A stretch of DNA of 64,000 nucleotides. Origin: Peptacetobacter hiranonis (lineage in GTDB: Bacteria > Bacillota > Clostridia > Peptostreptococcales > Peptostreptococcaceae). Shown one piece after another: positions 7,889-31,718 of the stretch. The notes beneath the pieces were generated by a model that had not been told where the DNA came from, made no database searches, and saw only the letters and a list, made by a program, of their open reading frames with translations. Position 1 is the first letter of the stretch. The number at the start of each line of letters is the position of its first letter. Made by a program: the position numbers and the translations under genes. The stretch lies in NCBI RefSeq assembly GCF_008151785.1, contig NZ_CP036523.1:1612001-1676000 (forward strand), given 5' to 3'.

Positions 7889-9358
7889 TTATCTTACTAT
7901 CTCAACAACTTCTCCGTTTAATGAGAATGATCTCGGCTGAGTTATTTTTACATTTACTAATTTACCTATTAAATTATCTTCGTTACTGTCAAAGTTTACA
8001 GTTTTATTCTGTCTAGTTTTTCCAGTGTATCTATTTTTATCTTTTGCGCTTCTTCCTTCAACTAGTACTTCAACAACTTTATCCTGATAGCTATAGTTTA
8101 TATCATTAACTATTCTGTTAACATGTTCTAATACTTCATCAAATCTTCTATGTTTTTCATCTTCTGGAATCTGATCTTCCATTTTAGCTGCTGGAGTTCC
8201 TTCTCTTTTAGAGTATATAAATGTAAATGCTGAGTCATATTTAGTTTCTTCTATTACATCTATAGTGTCCTGAACATCTTCAAGAGTTTCACCTGGGAAT
8301 CCAACCATTATATCTGTACTGAATGCTATGTCAGGGATTTCTTTTCTAACTTTTCTTACTATGTTAAGGTAGTCTTCTTTTGTATAGTGTCTATTCATTT
8401 TCTTTAACAGAGCACTACTTCCGCACTGAACTGGAAGATGTAAGAATTCACATATTTTTTCACAGTCTCTCATTGCATATATAACTTCATCAGATAAGTC
8501 TTTTGGATGAGATGTCATGAATCTTATTCTTTCTAATCCTTCTATTTTATTAACTTCTCTTAAAAGCTCAGCAAATGTCATCGGGTTTTCAAGAGTTTTT
8601 CCATAAGAGTTTACGTTCTGTCCAAGTAAAGTTACTTCTTTTGTTCCATTTGCAACTAATTCTTTTATTTCATCAAGTATATCCTGAGGCTCTCTACTTC
8701 TTTCTCTACCTCTAGTGTAAGGAACTATGCAATATGTGCAGAAGTTGTTGCATCCATACATTATATTTACAAATGCTTTTAGTTCAAATTTTCTGTTACT
8801 GTGTAACCCTTCTATTACCTCTCCGTCTACATCCCAAACTTCGACTATATTTTTTCCAGTTGTCATCTGTTTATATAGTAGTTCTGGGAATCTATATAGG
8901 TTGTGAGTACCAAACATTAGGTTTACATGTTTGTGATTTTTTTTGATTTCTTCTACAACATGTGGCTGCTGCATCATACATCCACAAAGCGCTATTTTTA
9001 CGTCTGGATTTTTTCTTTTTGTGAATTTTAGCTGTCCTAAGTTTCCGTATACTTTCATTTCTGCATTTTCTCTTACTGCACAAGTGTTGTATATTATTAG
9101 GTCTGCTTTGTATAGTTTTTCAGTTCTTTCGTATCCCATTCTTTCAAGCATATATGCTAGTTCTTCTGAGTCGTGCTCATTCATCTGACACCCAAACGTA
9201 CCACAGCCCACGACAGGACGACGGTGTTTTTTCTTTGCCCACTGGTCATTAAGTTCTCTAACTTTATCCATGAACACTTCCTGTTCTTCTAGTTTTTTAG
9301 GGTCTAATACTTTCTGTCTTGGTTTCTTTACTTCTTTGTTTATGTTAATTGTTTCCAT
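7889..9358 (-). CDS. miaB: tRNA-2-methylthio-N6-dimethylallyladenosine synthase MiaB, hybrid phage/host gene
   Basis: MiaB adds a methylthio group to i6A37 in tRNAs that read UNN codons. The 489-residue protein has the UPF0004 domain with GCQMNEHDSE, the radical SAM motif CNNFCTYC near residue 206, and a C-terminal TRAM domain ending in SFSLNGEVVEIVR. The gene is a hybrid: codons 1 to about 60 lie inside the prophage and the rest is host. The displaced host 5' end is at 48931-49128 and is about 80 percent identical in protein over 60 residues. A ribosome binding site (AAGGAG) lies 7 bases before the ATG in both copies. Confidence 0.95.
   Translation of the reverse strand: METININKEVKKPRQKVLDPKKLEEQEVFMDKVRELNDQWAKKKHRRPVVGCGTFGCQMNEHDSEELAYMLERMGYERTEKLYKADLIIYNTCAVRENAEMKVYGNLGQLKFTKRKNPDVKIALCGCMMQQPHVVEEIKKNHKHVNLMFGTHNLYRFPELLYKQMTTGKNIVEVWDVDGEVIEGLHSNRKFELKAFVNIMYGCNNFCTYCIVPYTRGRERSREPQDILDEIKELVANGTKEVTLLGQNVNSYGKTLENPMTFAELLREVNKIEGLERIRFMTSHPKDLSDEVIYAMRDCEKICEFLHLPVQCGSSALLKKMNRHYTKEDYLNIVRKVRKEIPDIAFSTDIMVGFPGETLEDVQDTIDVIEETKYDSAFTFIYSKREGTPAAKMEDQIPEDEKHRRFDEVLEHVNRIVNDINYSYQDKVVEVLVEGRSAKDKNRYTGKTRQNKTVNFDSNEDNLIGKLVNVKITQPRSFSLNGEVVEIVR
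9179..9193. other. attL core inside miaB
   Basis: The sequence ATTCATCTGACACCC is identical at 48949-48963. On the minus strand it encodes the five residues G-C-Q-M-N (codons 56-60), which contain a cluster-binding cysteine of MiaB. Sequence similarity continues into the 5' side because the phage carries a miaB-like start, so the true crossover could be a few bases away. Confidence 0.8.
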
Positions 9359-9404
9359 TTTTTTCTCCTTTTCTATTTATAACTATCTTTTTTATTTTAT
9401 CATA

Positions 9405-9430
9405 TAAAAAAAATAGGGTATAGTCCCTAT
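9405..9430 (-). terminator. Terminator ahead of the phage copy of the miaB leader
   Basis: On the minus strand an ATAGGG...CCCTAT stem is followed by eight T residues. It lies just before the stretch shared with the host miaB leader and would stop late phage transcripts from entering miaB. Confidence 0.65.
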
Positions 9431-9923
9431 TTACTCAAATAAAATTTCTATTTTTTAATTTACTTTTAAATAATCATATAATACTTAGGCTAACAGAGCA
9501 TGTATAGCATTTATTAATAAATCTTCTGTACAATTAAATATAAATTCTATAATAAATAATATGTTTAGCATAATATTATCATCTCCAATCAAAATATTTT
9601 TTAAAATATTTTTCATATCAATTAGAATTATTTCTTTTATACACTCTGTTATCCCTTGCTCAGCAAGCCTAAATATTATATTAGGTCTATTTAGAATTAT
9701 ATCACTATTTTATATATAATTCCAATAAAAAAGAGGAGAACACCTCTGCTCTCCCCTTACTGTTATAATATATAGTTATGATTTTTTTAGATTTAAACAC
9801 TATAGCACCGCTGCATAGTTGTTTATTCTTATTCTATTTTATAATATTTTTTTAATTGGACTATTATATTTTTCTTTCTTTAGATTATTTTATTTTTTAT
9901 TAGTATTTCCGTTCTCTTAAATT
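9431..9923. other. Non-coding stretch between lysis genes and miaB
   Basis: This AT-rich region holds a terminator at 9726-9755. It also holds a possible 43-codon hydrophobic reading frame on the minus strand (9485-9616, starting MKNILKN), which has no convincing ribosome binding site and may be a gene remnant. No RNA gene or longer reading frame is seen. Confidence 0.5.
9726..9755 (-). terminator. Terminator after the endolysin gene
   Basis: On the minus strand the stem GGAGA...TCTCC is followed by a run of six T residues. It lies about 170 bp after the endolysin stop codon and probably ends the late transcript. Confidence 0.55.
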
Positions 9924-10721
9924 TTACAGCAACTTCGCTGCATTTTTGAATGTCTGGAATCTATTAGCATCTTCTGATTTACCGCCTATCTGAACAACTT
10001 CTTTAGCTTTCAGACCACTTATTTTGAAGTCAGATTCCTTCATCATTGGACACTTATGCTTCTGAGCTACAACAATAGCTGCAAACACATCTGCATCCCC
10101 ATGATATAATACGATTTTATCCACGTCTTTTACCTCCTTCTTTGGATTATATACTTTCCCCTGAAGAGCATCTGCTATTGCTTTTGCAATATTATCTCTA
10201 TTTGCTTTATATAGAGTAACATCATCTTTATCACAGCAAAAACAAACTTCTATGATCATAGACTTACCATGTGTTTCTTTTAAGAATCTTAATCCAGAAT
10301 GTGCTTTAACTCCTCTGTTTCTAAATCCAATTTTCGATATATTACTACATATAAGGTTTCCTTTTTCTTTTATTTCAGCTGCATGTTTTGAGCCAGAATA
10401 ATACCAAACCTCTGTACCTATAGTTGCACCATCACCAACATAGTCTTTATGATTCACATCATTAAAATGTATAGATATATCCCAATCAGCTCCTATATCA
10501 TTATGCTTATCTGCTAACTTGTCTAATACATCTCCCTGACTTGTTCCGTTATTTACGGTACAATTGTATGCCTTTCTATTATCTTTTTTCAGATATTCTA
10601 TAACTTTATTTGTAATATATCTGTCTTCTGTAGATTCGTACATATCAAGTTTTTTATTTACAGTACCACATCCAACTTTTCCGTCTGGATTGTGTCCTCC
10701 TGATATACTGAATGTTTCCAA
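9924..10721 (-). CDS. Phage endolysin, N-acetylmuramoyl-L-alanine amidase (Amidase_3)
   Basis: The enzyme cuts the bond between muramic acid and the stem peptide to lyse the host. The N-terminal 185 residues form an Amidase_3 domain; zinc ligands can be placed at SGGHNPDG (His9), SIHFND and the catalytic Glu in MIIEVCFC. The C-terminal 70 residues (KIVLYHGDADVFAAIVVAQ onward) resemble the C-terminal domain of clostridial endolysins such as CD27L, which binds the wall and is reported in that group to be made separately from an internal start or by cleavage. The holin gene ends 1 bp upstream. Confidence 0.9.
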   Translation of the reverse strand: METFSISGGHNPDGKVGCGTVNKKLDMYESTEDRYITNKVIEYLKKDNRKAYNCTVNNGTSQGDVLDKLADKHNDIGADWDISIHFNDVNHKDYVGDGATIGTEVWYYSGSKHAAEIKEKGNLICSNISKIGFRNRGVKAHSGLRFLKETHGKSMIIEVCFCCDKDDVTLYKANRDNIAKAIADALQGKVYNPKKEVKDVDKIVLYHGDADVFAAIVVAQKHKCPMMKESDFKISGLKAKEVVQIGGKSEDANRFQTFKNAAKLL

Positions 10722-10722
10722 T

Positions 10723-11139
10723 CTATTTCACCTCCTTTCCATTATTATTTTTTAACTGCTCTAATGCGTCCTGAATCTGCTGTGGAACTGGAACTCCAAG
10801 CTGAGTAGCATTTTCTATTATGCTAAGTGATTCATTACTTATATAGAAGAATGCGACTAATGTTCTAAACATATGCTCACCAGTTCCAAGCATTCTATCA
10901 AGAGCAACCCCAACTATTAGTATTAAAAGAATCATTATTTTCTTAAATAACCCTCGTGCACTTGTAGAACTTGATAGGTCTTTGTTGACATATCCTTTCA
11001 TTAGTCCAGTTGCATAATCAACAGCCATAAGTATTATTAAACTGTTCAAGACTATGTCCCATCCACCAAATAGGAATGTGACACACGTTCCAGCAACAGC
11101 TATAATTCCATTAAATATATCTGTGAATTTTGCCATCAC
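10723..11139 (-). CDS. Phage holin (holin_4 / TcdE type)
   Basis: This 138-residue membrane protein has three hydrophobic segments (about residues 10-30, 33-47 and 70-88) and the family motif AVDYATGLMKGY, followed by SSSTSARGLFKK. Members form pores that release or activate the endolysin. The C-terminus is hydrophilic. It directly precedes the endolysin gene, forming a two-gene lysis cassette. Confidence 0.9.
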   Translation of the reverse strand: MMAKFTDIFNGIIAVAGTCVTFLFGGWDIVLNSLIILMAVDYATGLMKGYVNKDLSSSTSARGLFKKIMILLILIVGVALDRMLGTGEHMFRTLVAFFYISNESLSIIENATQLGVPVPQQIQDALEQLKNNNGKEVK

Positions 11140-11162
11140 TCTCTCCTTTCTAGCTAAAAATA

Positions 11163-11204
11163 GGGCATAAAAAAAGAACCCTCTGGTTCTATCTATTTAT
11201 GCCC
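11163..11204 (-). terminator. Nested hairpin terminator ahead of the lysis cassette
   Basis: On the minus strand the core stem AGAACC-AGAG-GGTTCT is followed by seven T residues, a clear terminator. It is enclosed by a second pairing, GGGCATAAA with TTTATGCCC. The two pairings overlap in the T tract, so the outer one could compete with termination. It separates the tail genes from holin and endolysin. Confidence 0.7.
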
Positions 11205-11234
11205 TTCTCTCCTATAGAGTAGCTTAGCTTTTAT

Positions 11235-11408
11235 TTATACTATTTCTTCAGTTTTTTCTTTTAAAGAATTTGTTAGTGTTTCATACTCTTCCTGAGTTAT
11301 TCTTCCGTTTAAAAAGAATACATCAAATTTGTTCTGCAGCTCTTCGGCTTCAGCTTTTTTAAATTTTGATTTTCTTGCAACCTGTCTCTGTAATAAAATA
11401 TAAAGCAT
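11235..11408 (-). CDS. Small SHOCT-like phage protein
   Basis: This 57-residue reading frame starts after GGAG at a good distance. The C-terminal part, NGRITQEEYETLTNSLKE, resembles the SHOCT motif, a short helical pair found at the C-terminus of many small proteins. Small genes of this kind often sit between tail fibre and holin genes in clostridial phages (XkdX position). The function is unknown. Confidence 0.6.
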   Translation of the reverse strand: MLYILLQRQVARKSKFKKAEAEELQNKFDVFFLNGRITQEEYETLTNSLKEKTEEIV

Positions 11409-11438
11409 ATTACCATCTCCTTCTTTTGAAATTATATA

Positions 11439-11858
11439 TTAAAGTGATATTCCCTGAGCTGACAACTCAAGCAACGCCACTCTATAGGCATTATCTACTA
11501 TCATATCCTCTTGAAATTTTTCGTTTGATTCAAGTTTTTCAACTCGTTCATGTAGCGACGGCGTTTGCGGAATTTCTGGAGGATTAGGCTTTTCTCTATA
11601 TTCGAATACTATTTCTTTTTTAGCTACATCGACATGGTAACTTGTACACTCTGCAAATTCTGTCTTAAATTCACCAAACTGTAGTTCCATAAAATCTACT
11701 TCACTTTTGTTGTATTTACTAAGTTCAGAGTAGATTATCCAATCGTCCTCACTTGTTGTTGGATTAACCCAACCTTCTGCCTCTCCTGTGTCTAATATTA
11801 CACGTCCGTCTACTTTTAAATAGTAAATTCTTTTCCCAATATATTTGTATCCTGCCAT
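11439..11858 (-). CDS. Phage tail-associated protein of unknown function
   Basis: The 139-residue protein has a beta-rich N-terminal part (GYKYIGKRIYYLKVDGRVIL) and a C-terminal coiled coil (LHERVEKLESNEKFQEDMIVDNAYRVALLEL). It lies 15 bp after the tail gene at 11874 and is surely part of the late operon. A receptor-binding accessory or chaperone role is possible from position alone. Confidence 0.6.
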   Translation of the reverse strand: MAGYKYIGKRIYYLKVDGRVILDTGEAEGWVNPTTSEDDWIIYSELSKYNKSEVDFMELQFGEFKTEFAECTSYHVDVAKKEIVFEYREKPNPPEIPQTPSLHERVEKLESNEKFQEDMIVDNAYRVALLELSAQGISL

Positions 11859-11873
11859 TTTATCACTCCTTTT

Positions 11874-12440
11874 TTAGCCTATCGCTGTCCATTTTATTGG
11901 TGCTTTCATAAAAAAATACTCTGGATAATTGAGTTCTTTATACGCAGTCATAACAATAGTCGCCTCTTTACTTGTTATATTTTTTACAAAAACTTTTGTT
12001 TCTCTAATAGGGTATTTTAAATTACCTATTCCTGCTGACGTAGAAATATTGTAATTGTGTTTGCTATCTACACTAAGTCCATATGGTGCATACATTCCTT
12101 CTTCAATTGTTTTTGAATGATTCATATATTCAAATTTGAATATAATTCGTTTTGGTGTAAAATTAAGATTTAGTGGAATTTTCTTTTCAAACTGTAAATA
12201 TTCATTATTAATTAGAGTACCTTGACTATCATTATCTCTAACTTTTAAATCCGAATTATATTCTCCTTCTGCTATTTTTTTATACTGTCCAACCATAGTA
12301 TCCATTTTGTTAACTACATCTGCTAAATCTGTAGCCCGTTCTCCACCAAGCTCTACTAACTTGTTATCTATATTATTTGCTACTGTTTTTAAATTTTCTT
12401 TTTGTGTGTTTGTATTGTTTATGGTATTTTTTAAGTCCAC
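11874..12440 (-). CDS. Tail fibre-like protein, intact member of a four-gene family
   Basis: The N-terminal 45 residues form a coiled coil (DLKNTINNTNTQKENLKTVA, then NNIDNKLVELGGERATDLADVV) shared with the three genes upstream, followed by a beta-rich domain ending KWTAIG. At the place where the paralogues have a poly-G tract this gene has a plain GGTGGAGAACGG, so it is always in frame. It starts with GTG preceded by AGGTGAT. A role at the virion surface is inferred from position after the baseplate genes and from domain plan. Confidence 0.6.
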   Translation of the reverse strand: MDLKNTINNTNTQKENLKTVANNIDNKLVELGGERATDLADVVNKMDTMVGQYKKIAEGEYNSDLKVRDNDSQGTLINNEYLQFEKKIPLNLNFTPKRIIFKFEYMNHSKTIEEGMYAPYGLSVDSKHNYNISTSAGIGNLKYPIRETKVFVKNITSKEATIVMTAYKELNYPEYFFMKAPIKWTAIG

Positions 12441-12450
12441 TTTATCACCT

Positions 12451-12970
12451 CTATTCTATTAGAATTACATCTTCTATTTTTAAATTCCATCTTAGCCCAC
12501 TTTCGCTTACTCCAAGATATCTAATAGCCACGCTAAACTCTATTTCATTTCCATTACTTATTTTAAAATTGTCAAATTTAACACTTTGGCTGTACGGATT
12601 TGTATAGAATACCATTGCGTTACAATCATGTTTAGAATCTACTATGAAATATCCTTCATATTCTTGCTTGTTATCATCTCTTTTAGCTTGACATATTAAA
12701 AATGCTTCTTTTGGGTTAAAATCTACATTGAAACTAAAAGAAAGCGTTTTAATACTAGTATATAAACCCTTAAATTCTTTGTTTAAAGTTAGTATTGCTA
12801 TCTTTTTATAATTCTCTTTTAACATCTTATCAATTGCGTCAGGTACTGCATTTAAGGTATCAGCAATTGTACCCCCCCGATAAAATTCTTTCATTTATTT
12901 TATTCTTTGCAAGTTTTAAATCATTTTTGTATTTATTCGTATTATCTATTGTCCTTTTTAAATCTTCCAT
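12451..12970 (-). CDS. Tail fibre-like paralogue 1, frame-broken at a G7 tract (phase OFF)
   Basis: Translation from the ATG at 12970, which has a good GGAG, gives MEDLKRTIDNTNKYKNDL and continues to residue 33, where seven G residues shift the frame into TGA. With six or nine G the frame would continue into GTIADTLNAVPDAIDKML and the beta-rich domain, giving about 172 residues. The downstream part alone is open from an internal ATG at 12894 without a ribosome binding site. The open downstream frame of about 140 codons argues against decay. Confidence 0.7.
12872..12878 (-). repeat. Homopolymer tract G7 (coding strand)
   Basis: Seven consecutive C residues on the plus strand interrupt paralogue 1 at codon 31. 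In-frame lengths would be 6 or 9. Confidence 0.85.
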
Positions 12971-12983
12971 TGTTTACTCCTTT

Positions 12984-13492
12984 CTATCCAATTAAAGTTA
13001 CATTGATAATCTTTGTATAACCATACGAAGTACGAGCTTCACCATAGAGAGTTAATTTTTTCTTAACTTTATCATATTTTACATTTTTTCTTTCTAAATA
13101 TACACTAAAAAAGTTATGATTTATATCTAGTGTATCTTTTGTTAAAAAATTTCCATCTCCATAACCATAACCTCCATAATCTGTATCATATCCCTCAAAA
13201 TCAAATATGTAGTTTTTTGGTTCAAATTCTACTGAACTTAAATCTATTTCTACTTTTGCATCTACTTTTGGCATATTAGAATCATAAAAAACAAATTCTG
13301 CATTAACTCCTTTTAATATTGCTATCTTTTTATATTGTCCCAACATTTCCGTAATCCGTTTTGGAGTTTCGGCTAAACTTTTAATATCGCACCCCCCCCC
13401 CGTACTATGCTTTGTTTAATTTGGTTTGTTACTGTTTTTAAGTTATTTTTTAAAGTATCTGTTTTAGTTATTGTATTTTGTAAGTTTTCCAT
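12984..13492 (-). CDS. Tail fibre-like paralogue 2, frame-broken at a G10 tract (phase OFF)
   Basis: From the ATG at 13492 the product begins MENLQNTITKTDTLKNNL and reaches the Gly-coding tract at residue 31. With ten G residues it stops soon after (LKV stop). With eight or eleven G the frame runs into CDIKSLAETPKRITEMLGQY and a beta-rich domain to 12984, about 169 residues. The segment from the internal ATG at 13346 is open but has no ribosome binding site. Confidence 0.72.
13392..13401 (-). repeat. Homopolymer tract G10 (coding strand)
   Basis: Ten consecutive C residues on the plus strand lie at codons 31-34 of paralogue 2. In-frame lengths would be 8 or 11. Such a tract is very unusual in DNA this AT-rich. 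Confidence 0.88.
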
Positions 13493-13502
13493 TTTTTCAC
13501 TC

Positions 13503-13972
13503 CTAACCAATTAAAAAAATTTCGACAATCGAAAAGTTGCCGCTGTATGAACTGTTTATGTCAAATTCTACTTTTTCTTTTGAAAACTTCCAAGTATTTT
13601 GCATTATGTGAATTGTTGCTAAATTAGTAGGTTCAGTCGATGTAATCCAACCTGTAGATGGATTAGGTCCAAATTCTCCACCTTTGCGTATTTTTACAAA
13701 TGCATATTTAGGTATAAATTCTAAATTCGTATTTATTGTAATTATATTGCTAGTATAGCTTTTAAAAGAATACGAAATTTCTGGGTTAAATTTTAATATT
13801 GCTAGTTTACTATACTGTCCTAACATACTTTTAATATTATCAGGTATCTCATTTAAACTTTTAGAAGTGATGCCCCCCCCCGTACCACAGTTTCATTTAT
13901 TTTGTCCTTAGCTAACTTTACATTATTTAATAAAGTTTCTGTTTTAGTTATTGTGTTTTTAAGATTTTCCAT
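13503..13972 (-). CDS. Tail fibre-like paralogue 3, frame-broken at a G9 tract (phase OFF)
   Basis: From the ATG at 13972 the product begins MENLKNTITKTETLLNNV and meets the tract at residue 31. Nine G residues lead to a stop eight codons later. Ten or seven G would continue into ITSKSLNEIPDNIKSMLGQY and the rest, about 156 residues in all. The internal ATG at 13826 has no ribosome binding site. The N-terminal 30 residues closely match paralogue 2. Confidence 0.72.
13873..13881 (-). repeat. Homopolymer tract G9 (coding strand)
   Basis: Nine consecutive C residues on the plus strand lie at the same codon position as the tracts in the two neighbouring paralogues. In-frame lengths would be 7 or 10. 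Confidence 0.88.
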
Positions 13973-13982
13973 ATCCTACCTC

Positions 13983-14456
13983 CTATACTGTCGGTGTTCC
14001 TATCTCTGTCTCAAGTTCTGTATTAATTCCACTTAAACGTGCAACTTGTCCTGTTAGTTCTTGTTCTAATGATTGTGTCTTAGTCTCTAAAGCCTTAACT
14101 TTAGTAGCTAGTGCGTCTATCGCTTTCTGTACATCTGTAGCTCCTAACTTATGCGTGTCTGTGTATTTCACTTTGTTAGCTGACAAGTCTATGTTGTCTA
14201 CCTTGTTGTTTGTATCAACGATTTTATCGTCTATCTCGTCAAGCACCTTGTCTAGTGTAGTTCCTTCAAATTTGTTTTTAGCATCTATTATAGATATATT
14301 TGTATCTGCCAAATCTATGTTTTCTATAGCTGTCTTTAGATCTCCAACAGCTTTATCAACCTTCTGATTATCGTTATAAAAATCTTCTCTTCTTACTGTT
14401 TCATTACCTTCCCAGGCATTCAAACCTAAATTAGGTGTCGTTTTTGCACTCGGCAT
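13983..14456 (-). CDS. Phage tail fibre/coiled-coil protein
   Basis: The 157-residue protein starts MPSAKTTPNLGLNAWEGNETVRREDFYND, a beginning common in tail fibre genes of clostridial myophages. Long heptad-patterned helices follow. It overlaps the upstream gene by 1 bp and comes right after the P2 gpI-like gene. It probably forms a trimeric fibre stalk or connector; this is inference from sequence type and position. Confidence 0.65.
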   Translation of the reverse strand: MPSAKTTPNLGLNAWEGNETVRREDFYNDNQKVDKAVGDLKTAIENIDLADTNISIIDAKNKFEGTTLDKVLDEIDDKIVDTNNKVDNIDLSANKVKYTDTHKLGATDVQKAIDALATKVKALETKTQSLEQELTGQVARLSGINTELETEIGTPTV

Positions 14457-15052
14457 TATCTAACCGCCTCTTTCTTTTCTGTATATACTTCTAATTCGTT
14501 CCAAGTCAGATTAAGAGCATCCCACTCGTTCCAAGTCTTATTATACGAATCGAACTCATCCCAAGTAAGATAGCTATATTCATACTTATAATCCAAATGT
14601 GCAGGCTTTATTCTTTTAATTACTTTGTCTAGCTCATCAAGAGCTGCTGGAATACCTTTTGTTCCTATAAACTTAATAGTAAAAATATAATGCTCAAAAT
14701 CCTCTATCACATCACATTCTCCGTTCGAATATGCCTCAGCTACCTTCTTAATAACCTCAACTGTAGTAATATCTCTCCTTCTCATCTCGGCCATAACATT
14801 ACTTCTTCTAGTCTCATAGCTAAGTTTCTCGTTAGTTTCTAACTTCACCAAATCTTCCCAGAACTCAAGTCCCCATGTTGCAGTACTCACAAAAAACTGA
14901 TTAAAAAGATCCGTAAATGCTTCCTTCAACTTATCAATCTCTATATCCAAAGCATCCATGAAAGGTTTATCAATTTCATTCTGCAGAAGTTTTGGAAACT
15001 TAGAATAAATATTGCTCTTATCATAAAACCAATTATATTTCTTAAGCATCAC
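14456..15052 (-). CDS. Baseplate wedge/tail protein I-like (YmfQ/XkdU, DUF2313-like)
   Basis: The 198-residue protein matches the family in position (after the gpJ-like gene) and in features such as LLQNEIDKPFMDALDIEID near the start and LEFWEDLVKLETNEKLSYETRRSNVMAEMRRR in the middle. These proteins link the baseplate to the tail fibres. Its C-terminus has repeated TWDEF/TWNEW units. It overlaps the upstream gene by 11 bp. Confidence 0.8.
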   Translation of the reverse strand: MMLKKYNWFYDKSNIYSKFPKLLQNEIDKPFMDALDIEIDKLKEAFTDLFNQFFVSTATWGLEFWEDLVKLETNEKLSYETRRSNVMAEMRRRDITTVEVIKKVAEAYSNGECDVIEDFEHYIFTIKFIGTKGIPAALDELDKVIKRIKPAHLDYKYEYSYLTWDEFDSYNKTWNEWDALNLTWNELEVYTEKKEAVR

Positions 15053-16097
15053 TCACCACTCCATCCAAGTTCGCAACTGCTATCTGTTCATCTCCTACTA
15101 CTACATCTGAAGTAGCTCCATTTAACTTCAAGCCTTCTATATTAACTACCTCACCTATATTTGCTAGTAACCCAAGCACTTTAATATAAGCTATCTTTGT
15201 GCCTGCTTCCTTGAAATATTCATTAAGAGCTACCAAGAAGTCTGACTTAACATTCTCTAAAATAGAATTAGCTGCTAATGTAAGAGTAGCTGTTATGTTT
15301 ATATTCATAGCAGTCGGAGTTATAACTGTAGGATTAGCTCCAACTGGTTTCTTGCTCATTATATATTCCCTACAGTTTTTCAGAACTTCCTCATCGACCG
15401 CCGTATTACCTTCTCCAAAGATAACAACCTTAACAGTACTAGGACCATTCCAAAGACCAGTAGCTTTTGCATCTTTCACTCCATCAATGCTCCTTGCCCA
15501 TTGCTCATAGTCGGCCTCATTACCAGATGTTGCTTTATCGGTCATATAGATATCAAACCTCTCTCTAAAGTCATCATCTGACTCTCTCTCAGTACCACCC
15601 TTAAATGGAACTCGGTTATAAATCTTAGTAATATTGCTATTAGCCTCAACCAAATTAAACTCTGTATTAGCATTTAAGTTATACTTCAAACCTATCTCTG
15701 CAGCTTGTATAGGGCTACTATTTTGCTCATTGTCAGCTACTAGAGTAACATCTTTTATAACTGTATAAATCAGACCTGCATATTCTATTTTCGTACCATT
15801 TTCTATAGTAGCTCCTATAGTTCCCTCAAAATAAACCTCTCCTGTAGCACATTCTCCTAATTTTCTTTTAGGGCCAAATTCATTTATTCTCTCGTCAAGA
15901 AATTCGCCAAAGGTATTTTTAATAAATACTAGATCCTCCACCATATCCAATGCCGAATATGCTTGTGCCAAATCTGTAGCCATAGCAGATGCATTATTGT
16001 AAGTAGTAGAGCCTTCAATTTTCGCCAAATCAGTCTTTGTATTTGCTAAAATCCTATCTCTAATAACATCAACTGTTTCTGTTGCATATCTAGACAC
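15042..16097 (-). CDS. Baseplate J family protein (XkdT-like)
   Basis: The 351-residue protein is a P2 gpJ-type baseplate wedge component. Visible family features are the N-terminal SRYATETVDVIRDRIL, the GTKIEYAGLIYTV region, the RVPFKGGTERESDDDFRERF motif and the later PVGANPTVITPTA. It is followed by the gpI-like gene and preceded by the XkdS-like gene, the usual order in contractile-tail phages. Confidence 0.88.
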   Translation of the reverse strand: MSRYATETVDVIRDRILANTKTDLAKIEGSTTYNNASAMATDLAQAYSALDMVEDLVFIKNTFGEFLDERINEFGPKRKLGECATGEVYFEGTIGATIENGTKIEYAGLIYTVIKDVTLVADNEQNSSPIQAAEIGLKYNLNANTEFNLVEANSNITKIYNRVPFKGGTERESDDDFRERFDIYMTDKATSGNEADYEQWARSIDGVKDAKATGLWNGPSTVKVVIFGEGNTAVDEEVLKNCREYIMSKKPVGANPTVITPTAMNINITATLTLAANSILENVKSDFLVALNEYFKEAGTKIAYIKVLGLLANIGEVVNIEGLKLNGATSDVVVGDEQIAVANLDGVVSDA

Positions 16098-16521
16098 TTA
16101 GCTCCACCCCCTCATTATAAATAGTATCTATATTAAGATATAAACTAAGAGTATCTCTCTCAAAAGATGCATCTAACTTATTTATATTCTTAATATATGG
16201 ATTAATACTCAGAGCCTCTTTAATATATCTAGTAGCCTCCGATTCCGTATAACCTTTCGTATACTTATCTCCAACTAACTCGTCTAGCTCTGTTCCATAA
16301 TCACTTGTAAAAATTGGATACCTATATCTAGCTATCTTAATAGCCTTATAAATCCACGCTTTCAAAGCCTCATCTTTTTCAACTATCTTATATTCCTTAG
16401 TATTCTCATCTATAATTGGCTTATCTCGACGAAAATCCCAAGCTATTTCCTTAAAAATTTCAAGATCACTAGCTTCCTTCTTACTATCCGATAAAATAAA
16501 CGGATATAATTCATTCGACAT
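16090..16521 (-). CDS. Baseplate protein, XkdS-like (DUF2634)
   Basis: The 143-residue protein corresponds to the gp25-like lysozyme-fold sheath initiator of PBSX-type phages. KAWIYKAIKIARYRYPIFTSDYGTELDELVG is typical of DUF2634. It overlaps both neighbours by a few bases, so translation is probably coupled. Confidence 0.85.
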   Translation of the reverse strand: MSNELYPFILSDSKKEASDLEIFKEIAWDFRRDKPIIDENTKEYKIVEKDEALKAWIYKAIKIARYRYPIFTSDYGTELDELVGDKYTKGYTESEATRYIKEALSINPYIKNINKLDASFERDTLSLYLNIDTIYNEGVELSV

Positions 16522-16823
16522 TAGATACTCACCACCTTGTCGATTATTACAAATTTATCTCCTCTTGCTAACATTACTACTGTATCGCCAGTTTTTATTT
16601 CATATTTATAATCATTCTTGTACATAGGTTTTTTATCAAGTCTATCCTTTACTAGAGAAGATATTAGTAGATTTTCTTTTTCTAAAATAATATCTTTAAA
16701 CTTAATTTTCAGATTAGGGTATCCACTTTTTACCTCTCCAAGAAATACTTCTTCTTCCTTAGCATCTTTTATAAGCCCTTCTATAAGAGCTGCCAACTCT
16801 AACATTGGGTTATTATCTTTCAT
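16521..16823 (-). CDS. Tail protein, XkdR-like (DUF2577)
   Basis: The 100-residue protein fits DUF2577 in length, in position between the XkdQ-like and XkdS-like genes, and in its C-terminal KTGDTVVMLARGDKFVIIDKVV. The family is thought to be a baseplate hub part. The stop overlaps the next start. Confidence 0.78.
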   Translation of the reverse strand: MKDNNPMLELAALIEGLIKDAKEEEVFLGEVKSGYPNLKIKFKDIILEKENLLISSLVKDRLDKKPMYKNDYKYEIKTGDTVVMLARGDKFVIIDKVVSI

Positions 16824-16832
16824 TACTACCTC

Positions 16833-18524
16833 CTACAAGAACCTTCTAGCATTGTGGAAATCTCCTCTACTAGACAAACTACTTATCTTTACTACATCTC
16901 CAGTTTGTGGTGCGTGTATGTATTGCCCACCACCGACATACATTCCTACATGATGTACTTTACTTTTACCGAAGAATACCAAATCACCAGGTTGTAAGTT
17001 ACCTTTACTTACAGATTGGCCATACCTACTCTGTTCTGAAGATGTACGTGGAATTGATTTTCCCATCTGTTTGGCCACCCAATAGATTAATCCACTACAA
17101 TCAAAAGAATTAGGACCCGTTGCTCCCCATTTATATGGTTTACCAAGCTGACTTTTAGCTAATGTAACTGCTCTATTATTTCCACCTCCAGCAGAAGAAA
17201 ATCCTGTACCATTTCCAATTATAATTTCTCCATATTTTCTTCCCCAGGCATAAGCACTTTTCTTGTCTGGATAAAGCAAATCTATGTGATAAACTCCATT
17301 AACGACCTGTATCTTTCCTCCACGATCATTTACACGATATACCTTTCCATCATTGCTTGTACCAGTTCCACAAACTTGTATTTGCGTATTAAATGGAATT
17401 GATGGAGGTGCTGCACATGTATTAGAACTTGGATTAAGTCTCTCTCCGTTTGCTGCAACAAACCCTCCTTGAAGTTTATCGTTGCTTGGATAATATGCAG
17501 TGAATAGAGCTTTAACCTTTTTACCATTTAATATTCCACCACCAGATGCTCCATCGGCGTTCTCCTCTTTACCATCCTCAGCCTTCTCATCCATGATATT
17601 CTCAAAATTCAAAGTCAGACTGATTTCGTGATGGTTATTAGAATATGTATGCGTATCACTATCAATGTAAAACTTACCTACTAAGCCACTTACAGTATCC
17701 TTTACCATAACAGCATTTCCAGTAACACACGTTGCATCTCCAATCCCTTTCAGATTACACTTCTTATCAACGTCCTTAAATATCTCATTTATCTCATCGT
17801 TACTAAGACCGCCGTCCTTCATTTCCTTGACTTCCTGGATAACTCCATAAACGTCAATCAACTCTTTTTTATCCTTTACTTCTTTCTGATTTCCATTAGA
17901 ATCAGTGATAACTATTCTATCAACTATATTCTGAGCATCTATAGAATACTCAGAATCAATTAGGTTCTTTCCTTCCTCAAAGCCTACCTTAAGTACTGTA
18001 ACACCCTTTTCAATCAGATATACCTTCTGTCTAGTTATTGCGAACATATACTTTTTCTTACTACTCTTAGCCTCCTCAGTATATGCAGTCATGATAATAT
18101 CGTAAAAAGACTTGTTCACGAAAACCTTAGACATCTTAGTCTTTCCTTTTACGATATCACCTCTTACAAACTTATTCTTTTGTAATACTTCTGATGCTAT
18201 CTCATCAGCTCTCTTATTCGTAAAGTTGAAAGAGCCTTTACTCTTTGTAAGTCTCCACCCTTCATCAAGAGCTGTATACTTAAAAGTATCAGAGGAACTA
18301 TTCTTATCTATACTCAAAACAGTTCCTCTAAATACTTCCTCTTCCTCATCATAAAACTTTGCCATATCTCCATTAGCTATATTGAATCCTGCTGATCTTA
18401 TTGTACTGAACTCACATTTTCTTCCACACTGTTTAATATCTCCGCTAGTTGTTACACTCTCAGTAATATTTGTGATATCGTACTTGCTTCCGTCCTTTTT
18501 CTGAATTACCATCTTTATATTCAT
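16833..18524 (-). CDS. Baseplate hub XkdQ-like protein fused to 3D and NlpC/P60 domains
   Basis: The 563-residue protein has an XkdQ hub domain (about 1-330), a Gly-rich linker, a 3D domain (about 335-435, ALFTAYYP and VNDRGG) and a C-terminal NlpC/P60 peptidase. The catalytic Cys is in FDCSGLIYW and the His in VHHVGMYVG. It probably forms the tail tip and cuts the host peptide crosslink during entry. The PBSX homologue is shorter and lacks these two domains, so this is a fusion. It lies 1 bp upstream from the XkdP-like gene stop. Confidence 0.88.
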   Translation of the reverse strand: MNIKMVIQKKDGSKYDITNITESVTTSGDIKQCGRKCEFSTIRSAGFNIANGDMAKFYDEEEEVFRGTVLSIDKNSSSDTFKYTALDEGWRLTKSKGSFNFTNKRADEIASEVLQKNKFVRGDIVKGKTKMSKVFVNKSFYDIIMTAYTEEAKSSKKKYMFAITRQKVYLIEKGVTVLKVGFEEGKNLIDSEYSIDAQNIVDRIVITDSNGNQKEVKDKKELIDVYGVIQEVKEMKDGGLSNDEINEIFKDVDKKCNLKGIGDATCVTGNAVMVKDTVSGLVGKFYIDSDTHTYSNNHHEISLTLNFENIMDEKAEDGKEENADGASGGGILNGKKVKALFTAYYPSNDKLQGGFVAANGERLNPSSNTCAAPPSIPFNTQIQVCGTGTSNDGKVYRVNDRGGKIQVVNGVYHIDLLYPDKKSAYAWGRKYGEIIIGNGTGFSSAGGGNNRAVTLAKSQLGKPYKWGATGPNSFDCSGLIYWVAKQMGKSIPRTSSEQSRYGQSVSKGNLQPGDLVFFGKSKVHHVGMYVGGGQYIHAPQTGDVVKISSLSSRGDFHNARRFL

Positions 18525-19160
18525 TTACGGAATCACCAACTTCCAGCCATCAACAATTAAATTAGGATTTTTTACCTTATCCTTATTTGCATTAGCTATT
18601 TTCATATATTGACTACCATCTCCATAATACTTCTTAGCTAATCCCCAAAGAGTATCTCCACGTTTAACTATATGTGTTGTGCTGCTCTTTTTCTTTTTAG
18701 TATCTGTAGGTCTCTTTGTAGTAGTTGGCTTTTTAGTACTAGAGCTATTAGTAGCAGGAGCAATCTGAGGAATTTCTATCTCCTTATACTCTGTAAGAGA
18801 TAATGAGAAATATACATCTCCAAGACCATTTATTTTATAAGTTTTCTCAAAGGATTCCACTAAAAATTGCTTATTTATATCAGTTCCCGTCATTATAAAT
18901 CTAATCGGCTTTTTCTCTCTCTTAGCCGACTCTATATGATTTATAAAAGTTTCTGGCTGTGGAAATCCATTATACTGACAAAATGGTCTGTATCTGCTAG
19001 GGAAAAAGGAACTGAATGATAGAGTATCTAATTTTTCGCCACCATATAAACCTACTTCTCCAGAATTTACCAAAGAAATAGTATTAATATCCGCCCCAGT
19101 TTTTACAGATACCTCTTGTATGGGTACTGGTAGCCTTAAATCATCAATATAAAACTCCAT
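18525..19160 (-). CDS. LysM-containing tail protein, XkdP-like
   Basis: The 211-residue protein has an N-terminal domain with VSVKTGADINTISLVNSGEVGLYGGEKLDTLSFSSFFP, a Thr/Lys-rich linker and a C-terminal LysM module (HIVKRGDTLWGLAKKYYGDGSQYMKIANAN). It connects the tape measure and the hub, and the LysM part probably touches peptidoglycan. Confidence 0.88.
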   Translation of the reverse strand: MEFYIDDLRLPVPIQEVSVKTGADINTISLVNSGEVGLYGGEKLDTLSFSSFFPSRYRPFCQYNGFPQPETFINHIESAKREKKPIRFIMTGTDINKQFLVESFEKTYKINGLGDVYFSLSLTEYKEIEIPQIAPATNSSSTKKPTTTKRPTDTKKKKSSTTHIVKRGDTLWGLAKKYYGDGSQYMKIANANKDKVKNPNLIVDGWKLVIP

Positions 19161-19175
19161 ATTTCATCATCCTTC

Positions 19176-20924
19176 CTATGCAAAATTAAGCAATGCTATT
19201 CTTAGCATTTCCACGAACTGAGCCACTATATCATTAATATCCATATTGTTAGCTATATTGAATGAATCTGCTAATTTATTAATAGTTATATTTATTATGT
19301 TCTGCCCATTTCCAGAACTTACTGGTGTAGGCATAGCTCTATTAACCATTGCCCTACTCTCTCTATTAGTAAATACTTTAGAACCACTTGGCATCTGTAC
19401 AAGCTCTGGTCCATGTTCACCAACCACAGATAATCCACCGCTCCAATACTTAGTACCAGTAGCATTACCACCAAGGAACCTACTAACTCCGCCACTTATA
19501 AATCCAGTAACACTAGATAATGCGTTTCCTATTCCATCTATAAGAGGCTTCACAAAATTATAGGCTTTTTTAACTATATTCATTATGCTAGTAAATACTC
19601 TTTTAAAAGTATTCCCAACAGTAGTAAGCACACTTCCAACGTTTTTAAGAGATGGTGCAATAGCACTAATTGCACTTTTAACGTATGGAGCTACTGCAGA
19701 TACAATCTGAGATATTCCATTAAGAGCAACTGATGCGACACTTAACAACCCACTAAACACAGGCCACAATGCTTTTATAGCTTGCCCTATAACTGGAGCA
19801 ACAGTCTGTATAATACTTCCTACACTCTGCCAAACTTCCTGGAATATAGGCTGTAATACTGGCATTTGTGAACTTAAAAAGCTAACAGCTCCACCTATCC
19901 CTTGCCCTATAGCATTTCCTATAGCGGTAAATGTAGGTAAAGCTCCTTGTAGCATAGAAGTAATTCCCGTCATAGCAGGAACTAAGCTCTGTAATATCCC
20001 TGTACCCATTTCAGCTAGACCAGTCTGTAAGTTCCCTACCATTGTAGAGAATGCTCCAGCTCCACTCTGTGCTAATTTAGCTGAACCACCAGAATATAAT
20101 TTAGAAAGTTCCTCCCTAGTCTTTTTAGGATCATCTGTGCTTGACCCCTTATAGCCAAACTCTTTTAGTCTTTCCATTTCGCCCATATCGGCATCAGCTA
20201 GAGCCTCCATTGCATCACTAACTGTCTTTCCAGGATTAAGAGCTGCCATATCCTCAGCTAATTTCAAAGTCTTCATAGCCTCTTTTGTAGAGCCCTTACT
20301 TATCTGTAATGCTCTTGTCCCTGCTTTCATAACCTCATCTGTGGTAAATGGTGTCGCATTAGCATTTTTTCTAAGTGCTTTAGTGTAGTTAGCACTCATT
20401 TTGCTTATCTGTGCTGCACTCTTGTCCTTGTTGTTAACTCCCATGAAATGACTAACAGAAATCTGTTGCTTTTCTAAATCCATAGCCGACTTGACTGATG
20501 TCACCAAGGCGGTTACTGCAATAGTAATTGGAGCTCTAAATGCAGATAACTTAGACTTAATAGCTCCTATCATAGAACTAGCTTTATCCTTTAGAGCTAC
20601 AATTGGCTTGACTGACATCCTTCCTACTGCTTTTGCTGTATTTTTTATCTTGTCTAGCTTTTCTTTTGCCAACTGTGTATTAGCTACAACCTTAACTATC
20701 CGAGACCTTTTATCTTTAAATTTTGTTCTAAGCTTTTTTAACTCTTTATGAGCCTTAGTAGCATCTAATCTTGCAGTATATTTTTCTTTTGCTGTTTTTC
20801 TAAGATTATCTCTAGTGCTTTTCAACTCTCTCTGGAACTGTTTCTGTTCTCTTCTTATCTCTCTCATAGTTCCAGACATATTATCTTTTAGTGAAATTAC
20901 TGCACTAATATACTTTTTTCCCAT
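19176..20924 (-). CDS. Tail tape measure protein (short)
   Basis: The 582-residue protein sets tail length. It has a basic coiled-coil N-terminus (to about residue 110), a TP901-type core with hydrophobic Gly/Ala-rich segments (about 115-460), and a conserved C-terminal GEHGPELVQMPSGSKVFTNRES motif. The length predicts a tail of under 100 nm, which is an inference from the usual ratio. The gene starts immediately after the frameshifted chaperone extension ends. Confidence 0.88.
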   Translation of the reverse strand: MGKKYISAVISLKDNMSGTMREIRREQKQFQRELKSTRDNLRKTAKEKYTARLDATKAHKELKKLRTKFKDKRSRIVKVVANTQLAKEKLDKIKNTAKAVGRMSVKPIVALKDKASSMIGAIKSKLSAFRAPITIAVTALVTSVKSAMDLEKQQISVSHFMGVNNKDKSAAQISKMSANYTKALRKNANATPFTTDEVMKAGTRALQISKGSTKEAMKTLKLAEDMAALNPGKTVSDAMEALADADMGEMERLKEFGYKGSSTDDPKKTREELSKLYSGGSAKLAQSGAGAFSTMVGNLQTGLAEMGTGILQSLVPAMTGITSMLQGALPTFTAIGNAIGQGIGGAVSFLSSQMPVLQPIFQEVWQSVGSIIQTVAPVIGQAIKALWPVFSGLLSVASVALNGISQIVSAVAPYVKSAISAIAPSLKNVGSVLTTVGNTFKRVFTSIMNIVKKAYNFVKPLIDGIGNALSSVTGFISGGVSRFLGGNATGTKYWSGGLSVVGEHGPELVQMPSGSKVFTNRESRAMVNRAMPTPVSSGNGQNIINITINKLADSFNIANNMDINDIVAQFVEMLRIALLNFA

Positions 20925-21107
20925 TTATTCACCTCCACCTAAGAAGGCATTATAAAATTCTATCTTTTTATCTTCTTCTACTCTCATAGAAGCTAAATAA
21001 AAGAGCTTATCAACATAACTCATATTGATAAGCTCATCTAATCTATGCCCACGATTTATATAGTGGGCATACATCTCTAAAAATCCATCTCTTTTTATTA
21101 CTTTTTT
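20925..21107 (-). CDS. Tail assembly chaperone extension, reached by -1 frameshift
   Basis: This frame has no good start of its own. It is entered from the upstream gene by slipping one base back on A AAA AAG. It then reads VIKRDGFLEMYAHYINRGH and about 40 more residues, ending GGGE just before the tape measure start. This matches the gpG/gpGT plan in which a fraction of ribosomes make a longer chaperone that helps tape measure and tube assembly. Confidence 0.78.
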   Translation of the reverse strand, partial: KKVIKRDGFLEMYAHYINRGHRLDELINMSYVDKLFYLASMRVEEDKKIEFYNAFLGGGE

Positions 21108-21481
21108 AGTTCTTCAACTTCTTCTACTCCATCATATCCACTCATAGCTACTAGTTTTCTAGCTATATCAGCTACTTCAAAGGTATCAAATATCTCAAAT
21201 AATATATCTGTTGGTTCTTTTATCTTATCTTTGAAGGCTTCTAATACTTCTGGGGAATGTAAATTAGGTTCTTTTAGACATTCATATACTAAATAGCTAT
21301 CTGCAAACTCTTCATCCATCTCCTGCACATCAAAAAGTAGCTCTTTATCTGGTTTTTCAACTACTATACATGCGTCTATTGATTTTACATATAACTTTTT
21401 AATTTCTTTTTTCTTATTTTTAAAAAACTCTTTTCTTTTTAATATATCTTCTATAGTTATTACTTCCATATTTCTAGCCAT
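21098..21481 (-). CDS. Tail assembly chaperone (XkdN-like, gpG equivalent)
   Basis: The 127-residue acidic protein lies between tail tube and tape measure genes, the fixed position of tail chaperones. Features include IEDILKRKEFFKNKKKEIKKLYV and EIFDTFEVADIARKLVAMSGY. It ends EELKK, where the codons CTA AAA AAG contain a perfect slippery heptamer. It is likely to coat the tape measure protein during assembly. Confidence 0.8.
   Translation of the reverse strand: MARNMEVITIEDILKRKEFFKNKKKEIKKLYVKSIDACIVVEKPDKELLFDVQEMDEEFADSYLVYECLKEPNLHSPEVLEAFKDKIKEPTDILFEIFDTFEVADIARKLVAMSGYDGVEEVEELKK
21101..21107 (-). promoter_or_regulatory. Programmed -1 frameshift site A AAA AAG
   Basis: The heptamer is in the correct phase (codons CTA AAA AAG TAA) directly before the zero-frame stop. 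The -1 frame is open for about 60 codons downstream. No strong pseudoknot was identified by eye. Confidence 0.75.
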
Positions 21482-21497
21482 TTTTACTCTCCTTATA

Positions 21498-21944
21498 TTA
21501 TGCTGCTAATATTTCATCTGGCATATCTGAATCAGATGGTGTAAATCCAAATGATGTTTCTTCTTCAATTTTTGAACCTTTTTCAAAGCTCATAAGAGTT
21601 AATTCATTTAGCCAAACATTTCTTAATATACAAGTTTCTGTCTGTTTTGCTATAGCGTTAGGAGATTTTAGCTGACCCATAAGTTCGCTTCTTGGGTCTT
21701 CACCTCTCTTAATTGCTTCAAGATATGCTTTTTTACCTCTACTGTATACTTTTGTGAATTTCATAGTACCTTCACCAGTTAGAGATACCAAGTTTGAGTC
21801 GTTGTCTATTCCTATGATTACATCTTCTCTATTTATAGTTATCTTAGCTTCAAATGATGCTATCTCAGCTATTAAATATCCATTCCACCATAGTTTCCCA
21901 TGAGTTCCATTTATAACATTTGAACCATTATATTTTCCAGCCAT
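21498..21944 (-). CDS. Tail tube protein, XkdM-like
   Basis: The 148-residue protein matches the XkdM (DUF2001) tube family: MAGKYNGSNVINGTHGKLWWNGYLIAEIASFEAKI at the start, then KFTKVYSRGKK and a C-terminal FGFTPSDSDMPDEI. It forms the inner tube of the contractile tail and follows the sheath gene by 13 bp. Confidence 0.9.
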   Translation of the reverse strand: MAGKYNGSNVINGTHGKLWWNGYLIAEIASFEAKITINREDVIIGIDNDSNLVSLTGEGTMKFTKVYSRGKKAYLEAIKRGEDPRSELMGQLKSPNAIAKQTETCILRNVWLNELTLMSFEKGSKIEEETSFGFTPSDSDMPDEILAA

Positions 21945-21957
21945 AAACTAATCCTCC

Positions 21958-23031
21958 TTACATATAAAGTTCTAGTTTTAAATCTTCCATTGCGTCGGCT
22001 ATTCTGAATTTTGCGTAACCAAATACATAAGAGCCAGTATTAAATTCTTTTAATTCTTGCTCTGTCATTGTAGTTACATCTACACCAGTTCCTTTTATCC
22101 ACTTCTTCTGAGCCTCAAATGCCACATCAGCTTCATTAATCACATTAGGATCTAAAAGCTCCTGTTTCCGAAGTGAATCTAAATAGCCTTTTATTGCACC
22201 AAAAAAGAGAACCTTATTCGGATAAGTATTCATTACTTTTCCAACATAGTAGTTCTCCCATGTATCCTGAATATCGGCTTTTATTAAGTCTGCCGTATCT
22301 AATATTTTTATCTTTTTAAAATCTTCTATCTCTCCAAGGCCAACCTCTGTCATAGCGGTTACACCTCTGACGAATTTTATTTTTTCGCCATCGTTAGTTA
22401 AGATTAATTCTCCATTATCAACTGCTGCATTTTCATCTTCATGTACAGTTATTTCTGTAACCTCTTCTAGCACATGATATGTGATTGACTGTGTACTAGG
22501 TAGACCTGCTAGTATACCAGCAACCCTTGCAGTATATGCCTCAGTTGAATAAGCTTTATCCTTTACCTTTATTCCCTTAGTAGTAAAGTTGATTAAACCT
22601 TTTTCTGTTTTAGACTTCACTCCAGTAAGAACAGCTTTGTAAGTTCTTCCTTTTTTTCTCATCTTAGTAATCCAAGCTTCTACCTTAGCAACACTATCAC
22701 TAGGTATTTCTGGAACTGCTAGATAATTAAATTTGAAGTACTCTAATTTTTCTAATCCTTTATCTAGAGTTTTATCGCCTGCTGCGAAGTCATCTATTAC
22801 TTCAACTATTACCTTGCTTGGTTCTCCAAGGAATGTAAGTCTTAGAAAATCGTAGTTATCTTCAGTCCAATCACTTTCTTTTACTTCATCAAAGCTTTTG
22901 TATGTTACTGTTTTTCCTTTTACAGTTCCAGTTGTGTCTTTAAGTACTAGAGCAACTACTCCTCTTGCACTTCTCCAACTCATATCTAAAGCTTTTCTTC
23001 TAAATTCAATCAGACATTCTGGTATTCCCAT
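21958..23031 (-). CDS. Tail sheath protein, XkdK-like
   Basis: The 357-residue protein is the contractile sheath subunit, which marks this phage as a myovirus. Family features are FRRKALDMSWRSARGVVALVLKD at the start, AGILAGLPSTQSITYHVL in the middle, and a C-terminal insertion ending YGYAKFRIADAMEDLKLELYM-like (here FGYAKFRIADAMEDL). It is about 80-100 residues shorter than PBSX XkdK, as in many clostridial phages. Confidence 0.88.
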   Translation of the reverse strand: MGIPECLIEFRRKALDMSWRSARGVVALVLKDTTGTVKGKTVTYKSFDEVKESDWTEDNYDFLRLTFLGEPSKVIVEVIDDFAAGDKTLDKGLEKLEYFKFNYLAVPEIPSDSVAKVEAWITKMRKKGRTYKAVLTGVKSKTEKGLINFTTKGIKVKDKAYSTEAYTARVAGILAGLPSTQSITYHVLEEVTEITVHEDENAAVDNGELILTNDGEKIKFVRGVTAMTEVGLGEIEDFKKIKILDTADLIKADIQDTWENYYVGKVMNTYPNKVLFFGAIKGYLDSLRKQELLDPNVINEADVAFEAQKKWIKGTGVDVTTMTEQELKEFNTGSYVFGYAKFRIADAMEDLKLELYM

Positions 23032-23033
23032 AC

Positions 23034-23444
23034 TTATACGCCCTCCATTTCTAATATTTGCATCTTCACATAGTCCTTTTCCTCAAACATATTCATATCT
23101 TTATCTATAGTTGTGTCTATTCTGTATTGAAGTACGTTATCTATCATATCTATGCTTATTTCACTTATACTTATTGCATCCTCACCAGCTAGATTTATAG
23201 TGTAGTCAGAAAATATCTCATTGAGTTTATCTGTCATTTTTAATAGTTCTAGCTGCTTTTTATCCGTTGGAAAATAATGTATTGTAATAGCAATCATCGT
23301 TGAAGATTCGCTATTGGCTATCACCATTAACTGCACAAAAAAAGCAGGTCTTTCAAACCCGCTTCTAATATCATCTGATACTATTGGTATATTCAATGGC
23401 TTTAATTTTTCATTAACAGCTCTTGCTATATCTACTAACTTCAT
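23034..23444 (-). CDS. Tail terminator/completion protein (DUF6838-like)
   Basis: The 136-residue protein lies between the HK97 gp10-like and sheath genes. Its start MKLVDIARAVNEKLK and the FPTDKKQLELLKMTDKLNEIF segment fit phage tail terminators of PBSX-type phages. Function rests on position and general likeness. Confidence 0.65.
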   Translation of the reverse strand: MKLVDIARAVNEKLKPLNIPIVSDDIRSGFERPAFFVQLMVIANSESSTMIAITIHYFPTDKKQLELLKMTDKLNEIFSDYTINLAGEDAISISEISIDMIDNVLQYRIDTTIDKDMNMFEEKDYVKMQILEMEGV

Positions 23445-23447
23445 TTG

Positions 23448-23900
23448 CTATTCCTTTAAGTCAAATATTTCATCGACTAATTTTTCTATTCTTGCATCTA
23501 TCTTAGGTTGCTGATGAGTCATTGTGTTCTTCAACATGTGAACTCCTTCTGCATAACCTATTACTTTTCTACTACTTTTTTTCTTTCCATGAGTGACTAT
23601 ATCGTGGCCATACTCAATCAAGTGTGCATGTGGAGCATTATTTCTCAATGCTCCAAAAGTCTTTCCTGGTTTATCCATCTTTTGTATTTTCCAACTATCT
23701 CTTAGATGCTTACTATTTTTATATTTTTTATTTTTCTTTTCAGCCCATGGAGTTCTAGCTATTACCTCTGCTTTACATTCTCCTAAGCTTTTATCTACAA
23801 GTTTATCTGCTTTTTCTGGATATTCTTTACATATTTTGTAATACATTTTTTCTGTAAAATCATCCAATCCATCGCATTTGAAATCAGTTCCACTACTCAT
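23448..23900 (-). CDS. HK97 gp10-like neck protein
   Basis: The 150-residue protein has the family pattern: a helical N-terminus, EVIARTPW, LRDSWKI, and NNAPHAHLIEYGHDI followed by a C-terminal helix. These proteins join head and tail. It overlaps the upstream head-closure gene by 8 bp. Confidence 0.82.
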   Translation of the reverse strand: MSSGTDFKCDGLDDFTEKMYYKICKEYPEKADKLVDKSLGECKAEVIARTPWAEKKNKKYKNSKHLRDSWKIQKMDKPGKTFGALRNNAPHAHLIEYGHDIVTHGKKKSSRKVIGYAEGVHMLKNTMTHQQPKIDARIEKLVDEIFDLKE

Positions 23901-24527: not shown

Positions 24528-24594
24528 CTTTTACACCTTCTTCTTCCGTAGTAGACTCTGTTTCTTCAGTAGCCTCTACTTCTACTTTAAGCAT
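24484..24594 (-). CDS. Possible small acidic/basic phage protein overlapping the connector gene
   Basis: A 36-codon frame begins MLKVEVEATEETESTTEEEG and ends with a basic RRKKVSKN. It starts 9 bp downstream of the capsid stop, without a strong ribosome binding site, and overlaps the connector gene in another frame. Similar short genes occur here in some phages, but this one may be only leader sequence. Confidence 0.3.
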   Translation of the reverse strand: MLKVEVEATEETESTTEEEGVKDVSSTSRRKKVSKN

Positions 24595-24602
24595 ACTTGG
24601 GA

Positions 24603-27688: not shown

Positions 27689-27700
27689 TTATTCACCTCC

Positions 27701-29746: not shown

Positions 29747-29759
29747 AAATCACCTTAAA

Positions 29760-31706: not shown

Positions 31707-31718
31707 TACGGCTCCTTT

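Follow-up and report, generated by a model that had tools for sequence, protein, structure and literature searches.

Poly-G tracts at a shared codon in tandem tail-tip genes of a Peptacetobacter hiranonis prophage: candidate phase-variation switches

Three consecutive tail-tip genes in a prophage of Peptacetobacter hiranonis are each broken by a poly-G tract that begins in the same codon, with a long open frame continuing on the far side. We consider slipped-strand phase variation of alternative, probably receptor-binding, tail-tip proteins to be the best explanation of this arrangement and a likely one, and we infer both the switching and the receptor binding. Phase variation by slippage had been proposed in a first-pass annotation of the same DNA, and it gains support here from an in-frame G7 tract in a homologous gene, from a tract that is G9 in one assembly and G10 in another, and from the similar gene layout of Campylobacter phage CP81.

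A complete-looking prophage and its tail-tip array

The window, meaning the whole 64,000-nucleotide stretch analyzed here (NZ_CP036523.1, positions 1,612,001 to 1,676,000), contains an intact-looking prophage of about 40 kb and myovirus type. It is bounded by exact 76-bp repeats (attL 9308-9383, attR 49078-49153), and Pfam matches within it comprise terminase, portal, protease, capsid, sheath, tube, baseplate J, Gp48, holin, amidase, an S24 repressor, and a serine recombinase. Because structural, lysis, repressor, and recombinase genes are all present, the prophage looks complete as judged from its gene content. The repeats span the miaB ribosome-binding site and first codons, with weaker similarity running on past the attR copy, and the prophage seems to carry a miaB 5' end of its own; a 76-bp shared core is unusually long for a large serine recombinase. 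Near the repressor region, the open reading frames at 38217-38726 and 38957-39514 end in near-identical C-termini (RAIK-RFP-ISIKTFTNGEREDF) and represent a recent duplication.

The tail-end genes of this prophage include an array of four tandem paralogues on the minus strand, with starts as follows: C (13972), B (13492), A (12970), and a tractless gene (12440). The array lies downstream of the baseplate J-like gene, the Gp48/YmfQ-like gene, which marks where the structural operon reaches the tail tip, and a coiled-coil tail protein gene. The features are as follows.

9308..49153, no strand: prophage, flanked by 76-bp direct repeats and located at the 5' end of miaB
15042..16097, minus: baseplate J-like protein (PF04865, 1.6e-58)
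14456..15052, minus: Gp48/YmfQ-like baseplate protein (PF10076, 4.8e-31; phrog_521 tail protein, 1.3e-56)
13983..14456, minus: upstream tail protein with a coiled coil; a 54% identical relative adjoins the array of a second prophage
13503..13972, minus: tail-tip paralogue C, with a ribosome-binding site and ATG at 13972; frame broken at a G9 tract
13873..13881, minus: tract C, G9; also G9 in the IMG/VR copy
12984..13492, minus: tail-tip paralogue B; frame broken at a G10 tract
13392..13401, minus: tract B, G10; G9 in the IMG/VR copy
12451..12970, minus: tail-tip paralogue A; frame broken at a G7 tract
12872..12878, minus: tract A, G7; also G7 in the IMG/VR copy
11874..12440, minus: intact tractless paralogue, GTG start, 188 aa; hinge coded GGTGGA, not poly-G

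The gene that follows the array (11439-11858) matches PHROG 3321, labeled rhodanese-related sulfurtransferase (1.4e-25), which is unexpected for a small tail-end gene; a close copy lies in the second prophage (L085 11000-11386).

Frames broken at codon 31 and the rarity of G runs

Genes A, B, and C start at ATG codons (12970, 13492, and 13972), each with a strong, well-placed ribosome-binding site, and in all three the first G of the tract falls in codon 31. This bears out the first-pass description of three tandem paralogues with G7, G10, and G9 tracts at one codon position, including the span assigned to them, and the in-frame lengths that it gave (6/9, 8/11, and 7/10) agree with our recomputed values. 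From start to stop the genes measure 520, 509, and 470 nt, none divisible by three; the N-terminal frame reaches a stop within a few codons past the tract, and another frame is open downstream for 139, 135, and 122 codons, respectively. For each gene, 5000 first-order Markov sequences included no open frame of that length, and codon usage, scored with the neighboring phage genes as reference, was positive among the three sense frames in the downstream frame only (36.8, 40.9, and 22.8 bits for A, B, and C). The annotation had cited these stop-free frames against decay, a point that their length and codon bias reinforce.

A profile built from the four intact paralogues detects both halves of each broken gene. 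The N-terminal halves of A, B, and C match it at positions 1-36, 1-38, and 1-35, and the C-terminal halves match it from positions 32, 28, and 33 in the other frame, with the junction at the tract. In the DNA alignment of the paralogues, every unambiguous indel in the conserved sequence on either side of the tract has a length divisible by three; the tract itself varies from 7 to 10. The tractless paralogues, among them the gene at 11874-12440, correctly described at first pass as tractless and intact, use ordinary codons for this hinge (GGTGGA, AAGGGA), and GGG makes up 8.7% of the glycine codons in neighboring genes. Each of the three genes thus holds a homopolymer within its reading frame, with coding sequence on both sides that some tract lengths would join, as in a contingency locus. 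Separate expression of the C-terminal domains from internal starts was considered and rejected, the nearby in-frame ATG codons having no good ribosome-binding site.

Long G runs were said to be rare in this DNA, and they are so at genome scale. Within the window, runs of at least seven G gave 8 overlapping matches, all in tracts A-C, against 0.38 expected by shuffling. The whole 2.52 Mb genome has 10 distinct runs of this length, four of which belong to the tail-tip gene family (binomial probability about 8e-11, calculated post hoc); half of the ten lie inside genes, and four of those five are tail-tip paralogues. The remaining six comprise three just 5' of a start codon, one in a terminator-like hairpin, one intergenic, and one that is in frame within a transporter-like gene. 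Across 71 other genomes of the bacterial family, runs of at least nine G are rare, and most of them are intergenic or coincide with ribosome-binding sites; coding poly-G switches are therefore uncommon there. A G9 run in the host genome (G000:C1:2258019-2258027; L011 1501-1509) lies about 5 bases 5' of the TTG codon that starts a MATE-type transporter gene, where it is a possible translational phase switch of the host.

An in-frame homologue, a second assembly, and competing explanations

The first-pass annotation had proposed comparing tract lengths with those of related prophages, and this comparison yielded an in-frame relative. A second prophage in the same genome (L085, G000:C1:1305000-1324999) carries a related tail module in which gene D (L085 12382-12858) is followed by two tractless paralogues. 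Gene D has a G7 tract at the same codon as A-C, in frame, and encodes an intact protein of 158 aa; D shows the joined reading frame and the existence of an in-frame tract state in the family. A structure model of D, of low confidence (mean pLDDT 57), places the tract and hinge where a 28-residue helix ends and a beta domain follows. Genes C and D are near-identical in DNA on both sides of the tract and diverge farther downstream, a pattern that suggests exchange between the two prophages.

Comparison with another assembly showed a tract that differs in length. IMG/VR records UViG_642979371_000001 and UViG_642979371_000003 align to the two prophages over 31,993 and 18,289 bases with zero substitutions, and across these 50,282 bases a single G sets the assemblies apart, in tract B, which is G9 in IMG/VR and G10 here. 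Given the zero substitutions and this single one-base difference, the IMG/VR assembly apparently derives from the same strain. The changed site is the longest G run, and about 190 A/T runs of at least six are identical between the assemblies. Genes A, B, and C are out of frame in both, with no ON allele of A-C in either.

Beyond this strain the family was sought widely. DNA and protein searches of annotated phages returned no relative; viral contigs scanned with each C-terminal domain, the N-terminal part, and the neighboring tail protein gave only the two same-strain records, apart from one contig with a weak 32-residue match to the neighboring tail protein; and genome searches at the family, order, and class levels found no other carrier. 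Weak matches in genomes G101, G019, and G004 were set aside as other proteins (G101 and G004 were inspected), as were 27 contigs, besides our own, that a viral-contig motif scan for TVV(R/S) plus G7 returned, all of them unrelated. After these viral-contig, phage, and genome searches, the family is known from one strain only.

Of the alternatives to switching, we regard decay as unlikely, though it would account for several observations. Chance expansion of G runs may have broken three redundant tail genes in an unselected prophage, with no switching role; a dormant prophage needs no tail genes, A-C are all off in both assemblies, and a single strain is known. Decay would nonetheless have had to strike three times at one codon, with a type of run nearly absent from coding DNA elsewhere in the genome, and to leave no further frame damage across 122-139 codons in each gene and a prophage that otherwise looks intact. 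Error in sequencing or assembling homopolymers, by which intact genes would merely seem broken, is a concern for long G runs, which are error-prone, and the disagreement over tract B might be laid to it. The two assemblies agree, however, on an out-of-frame length for tract A (G7) and for tract C (G9), so the broken state is not an error, and B is out of frame in both; we judge this explanation very improbable for the breaks. The G10/G9 difference in B is probably real, although a miscalled base in a run of this length could also produce it.

Recoding at the G run, by programmed ribosomal frameshifting or by transcriptional slippage, would leave the gene as it is and yield a small, constant full-length output. 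Frameshifting is common in phage tail genes, and the G-rich slippery runs close to the gene starts, with both flanking frames intact, would suit it. The correction needed is nonetheless +1 in A, -1 in B, -1 in C, and none in D, which is simply in frame, and the correction for B flips from -1 to +1 between assemblies. Because the corrections differ among the genes and between the copies of B, no single programmed shift fits, and the homologues share no one shift direction. The ribosomal alternative raised at first pass is thereby disfavored; transcriptional slippage, able to go both ways, is less strongly excluded. Taken together, we consider such recoding improbable, a little more so than decay, and we retain slipped-strand phase variation as the preferred reading.

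Proposed switching and comparison with known systems

Under slipped-strand phase variation, the array would encode alternative short tail-tip or fiber proteins of a contractile-tailed temperate phage. Each is predicted to begin with an N-terminal coiled coil of about 30 residues, presumed to dock, and to continue through a Gly-rich hinge into a C-terminal domain that is variable, rich in beta structure, and presumed to bind a receptor; in three of the four array genes the hinge would be encoded by the poly-G run. The C-terminal domains gave no informative family match in Pfam or PHROG and have no solved or annotated relatives, so their receptor-binding role is proposed from operon position and analogy. 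Slipped-strand mispairing during replication would alter tract length and so toggle each gene between a full-length tail-tip protein of about 155-175 residues (ON) and a coiled-coil fragment of about 36-45 residues that has no C-terminal domain (OFF), and gain or loss of one hinge glycine would probably be tolerated. The tractless gene at 11874 would always be on, presumably keeping the phage infective in any state. Lysogens and their progeny would then be mixtures with different C-terminal domains on the tail, altering adsorption range. This scheme supposes that ON forms of A-C arise, that their proteins sit on the virion, and that they bind receptors. A G7 tract is expected to slip much less than G9-G10, making C and B the likelier active switches; A may be nearly locked off.

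More tentatively, and with somewhat less than even confidence, we suggest that these elements together form a combinatorial tail-tip set in a temperate phage of gut Clostridia: one constant gene and three independently flipping poly-G genes would allow up to eight states, modules would be shared with the switchable gene of the co-resident prophage, and each burst would carry differing tail-tip sets. The placement of the tract near codon 30 would then be convergent with that in Campylobacter phages, and switching by slippage a general phage strategy. If switching occurs as proposed, it would explain variation in adsorption range without an invertase or retroelement, and frameshifted tail genes that annotation lists as pseudogenes may be working switches.

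Coding poly-G tracts do have a precedent in phages. In Campylobacter phages, hypermutable polyG tracts are reported to cause phase-variable expression of receptor-binding proteins (Sorensen et al. 2021, Cell Rep 35:109214, as cited in PMC10579305 and PMC8766974). Campylobacter phage CP81 (Fletchervirus, FR823450) belongs to a phage group with such reported switching of tail proteins. Its ORF109 has an in-frame G12 after an N-terminal part of about 30 residues and encodes 300 aa, and the next gene, ORF110/111, which has a similar N-terminus, is interrupted at a G7 tract and stays open for 228 codons beyond it. This tandem pair (L196 23881, 24838) is annotated as separate hypothetical proteins. 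CP81 thus resembles our array in having tandem paralogues with a coding poly-G near codon 30, just past a short conserved N-terminal part. BLASTP of D against ORF109 gave a best E value of 1.7, and the two are analogous only. CP81 is also a virulent phage of about 130 kb, and its Gram-negative host has poly-G phase variation of its own, in contrast to the temperate Clostridia phage of about 40 kb described here. A further difference is that here three consecutive genes are broken and a second prophage carries a homologue.

Other phages diversify their tail tips by different means. The inversion systems Mu Gin, P1 Cin, p15B Min, and bifidophage Rin (PMC6109161) likewise choose reversibly among alternative tail-tip C-termini, each joined to an N-terminal or attachment part that stays constant. 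These DNA-inversion switches differ in that each gene here would toggle alone by slippage, and several may be on together; beside the array, no invertible segment and no invertase were noted. The retroelement of Bordetella phage BPP-1 works by reverse-transcriptase mutagenesis of codons. That diversity-generating element, cited in PMC10579305, likewise diversifies a receptor-binding tail protein, through residue variation rather than the on/off switching proposed here, and inspection of the window's open reading frames by eye noted no reverse transcriptase. Among bacterial contingency genes, slipped-strand frameshifting of a coding G run similarly toggles a surface function, as in C. jejuni cj1421 (PMC5808241); such genes act on the host surface, whereas the switched gene here belongs to a phage tail.

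A literature search for tract-switched phage tails in Clostridia, covering few subscription papers, found none. The first-pass suggestion that clustered switching of phage tail genes was undescribed in this group therefore stands, within the reach of these searches, for this bacterial group only and could not be extended to phages at large, given the Campylobacter precedent reported by Sorensen et al. (2021). PolyG-switched phage tail proteins are thus already known from Campylobacter phages, and their probable occurrence in a temperate Clostridia phage is apparently new for this bacterial group. If the switching is real, the poly-G device is not peculiar to Campylobacter phages, whose hosts use the same trick, and would have arisen separately in a temperate phage of AT-rich Clostridia whose own genome contains almost no coding poly-G.
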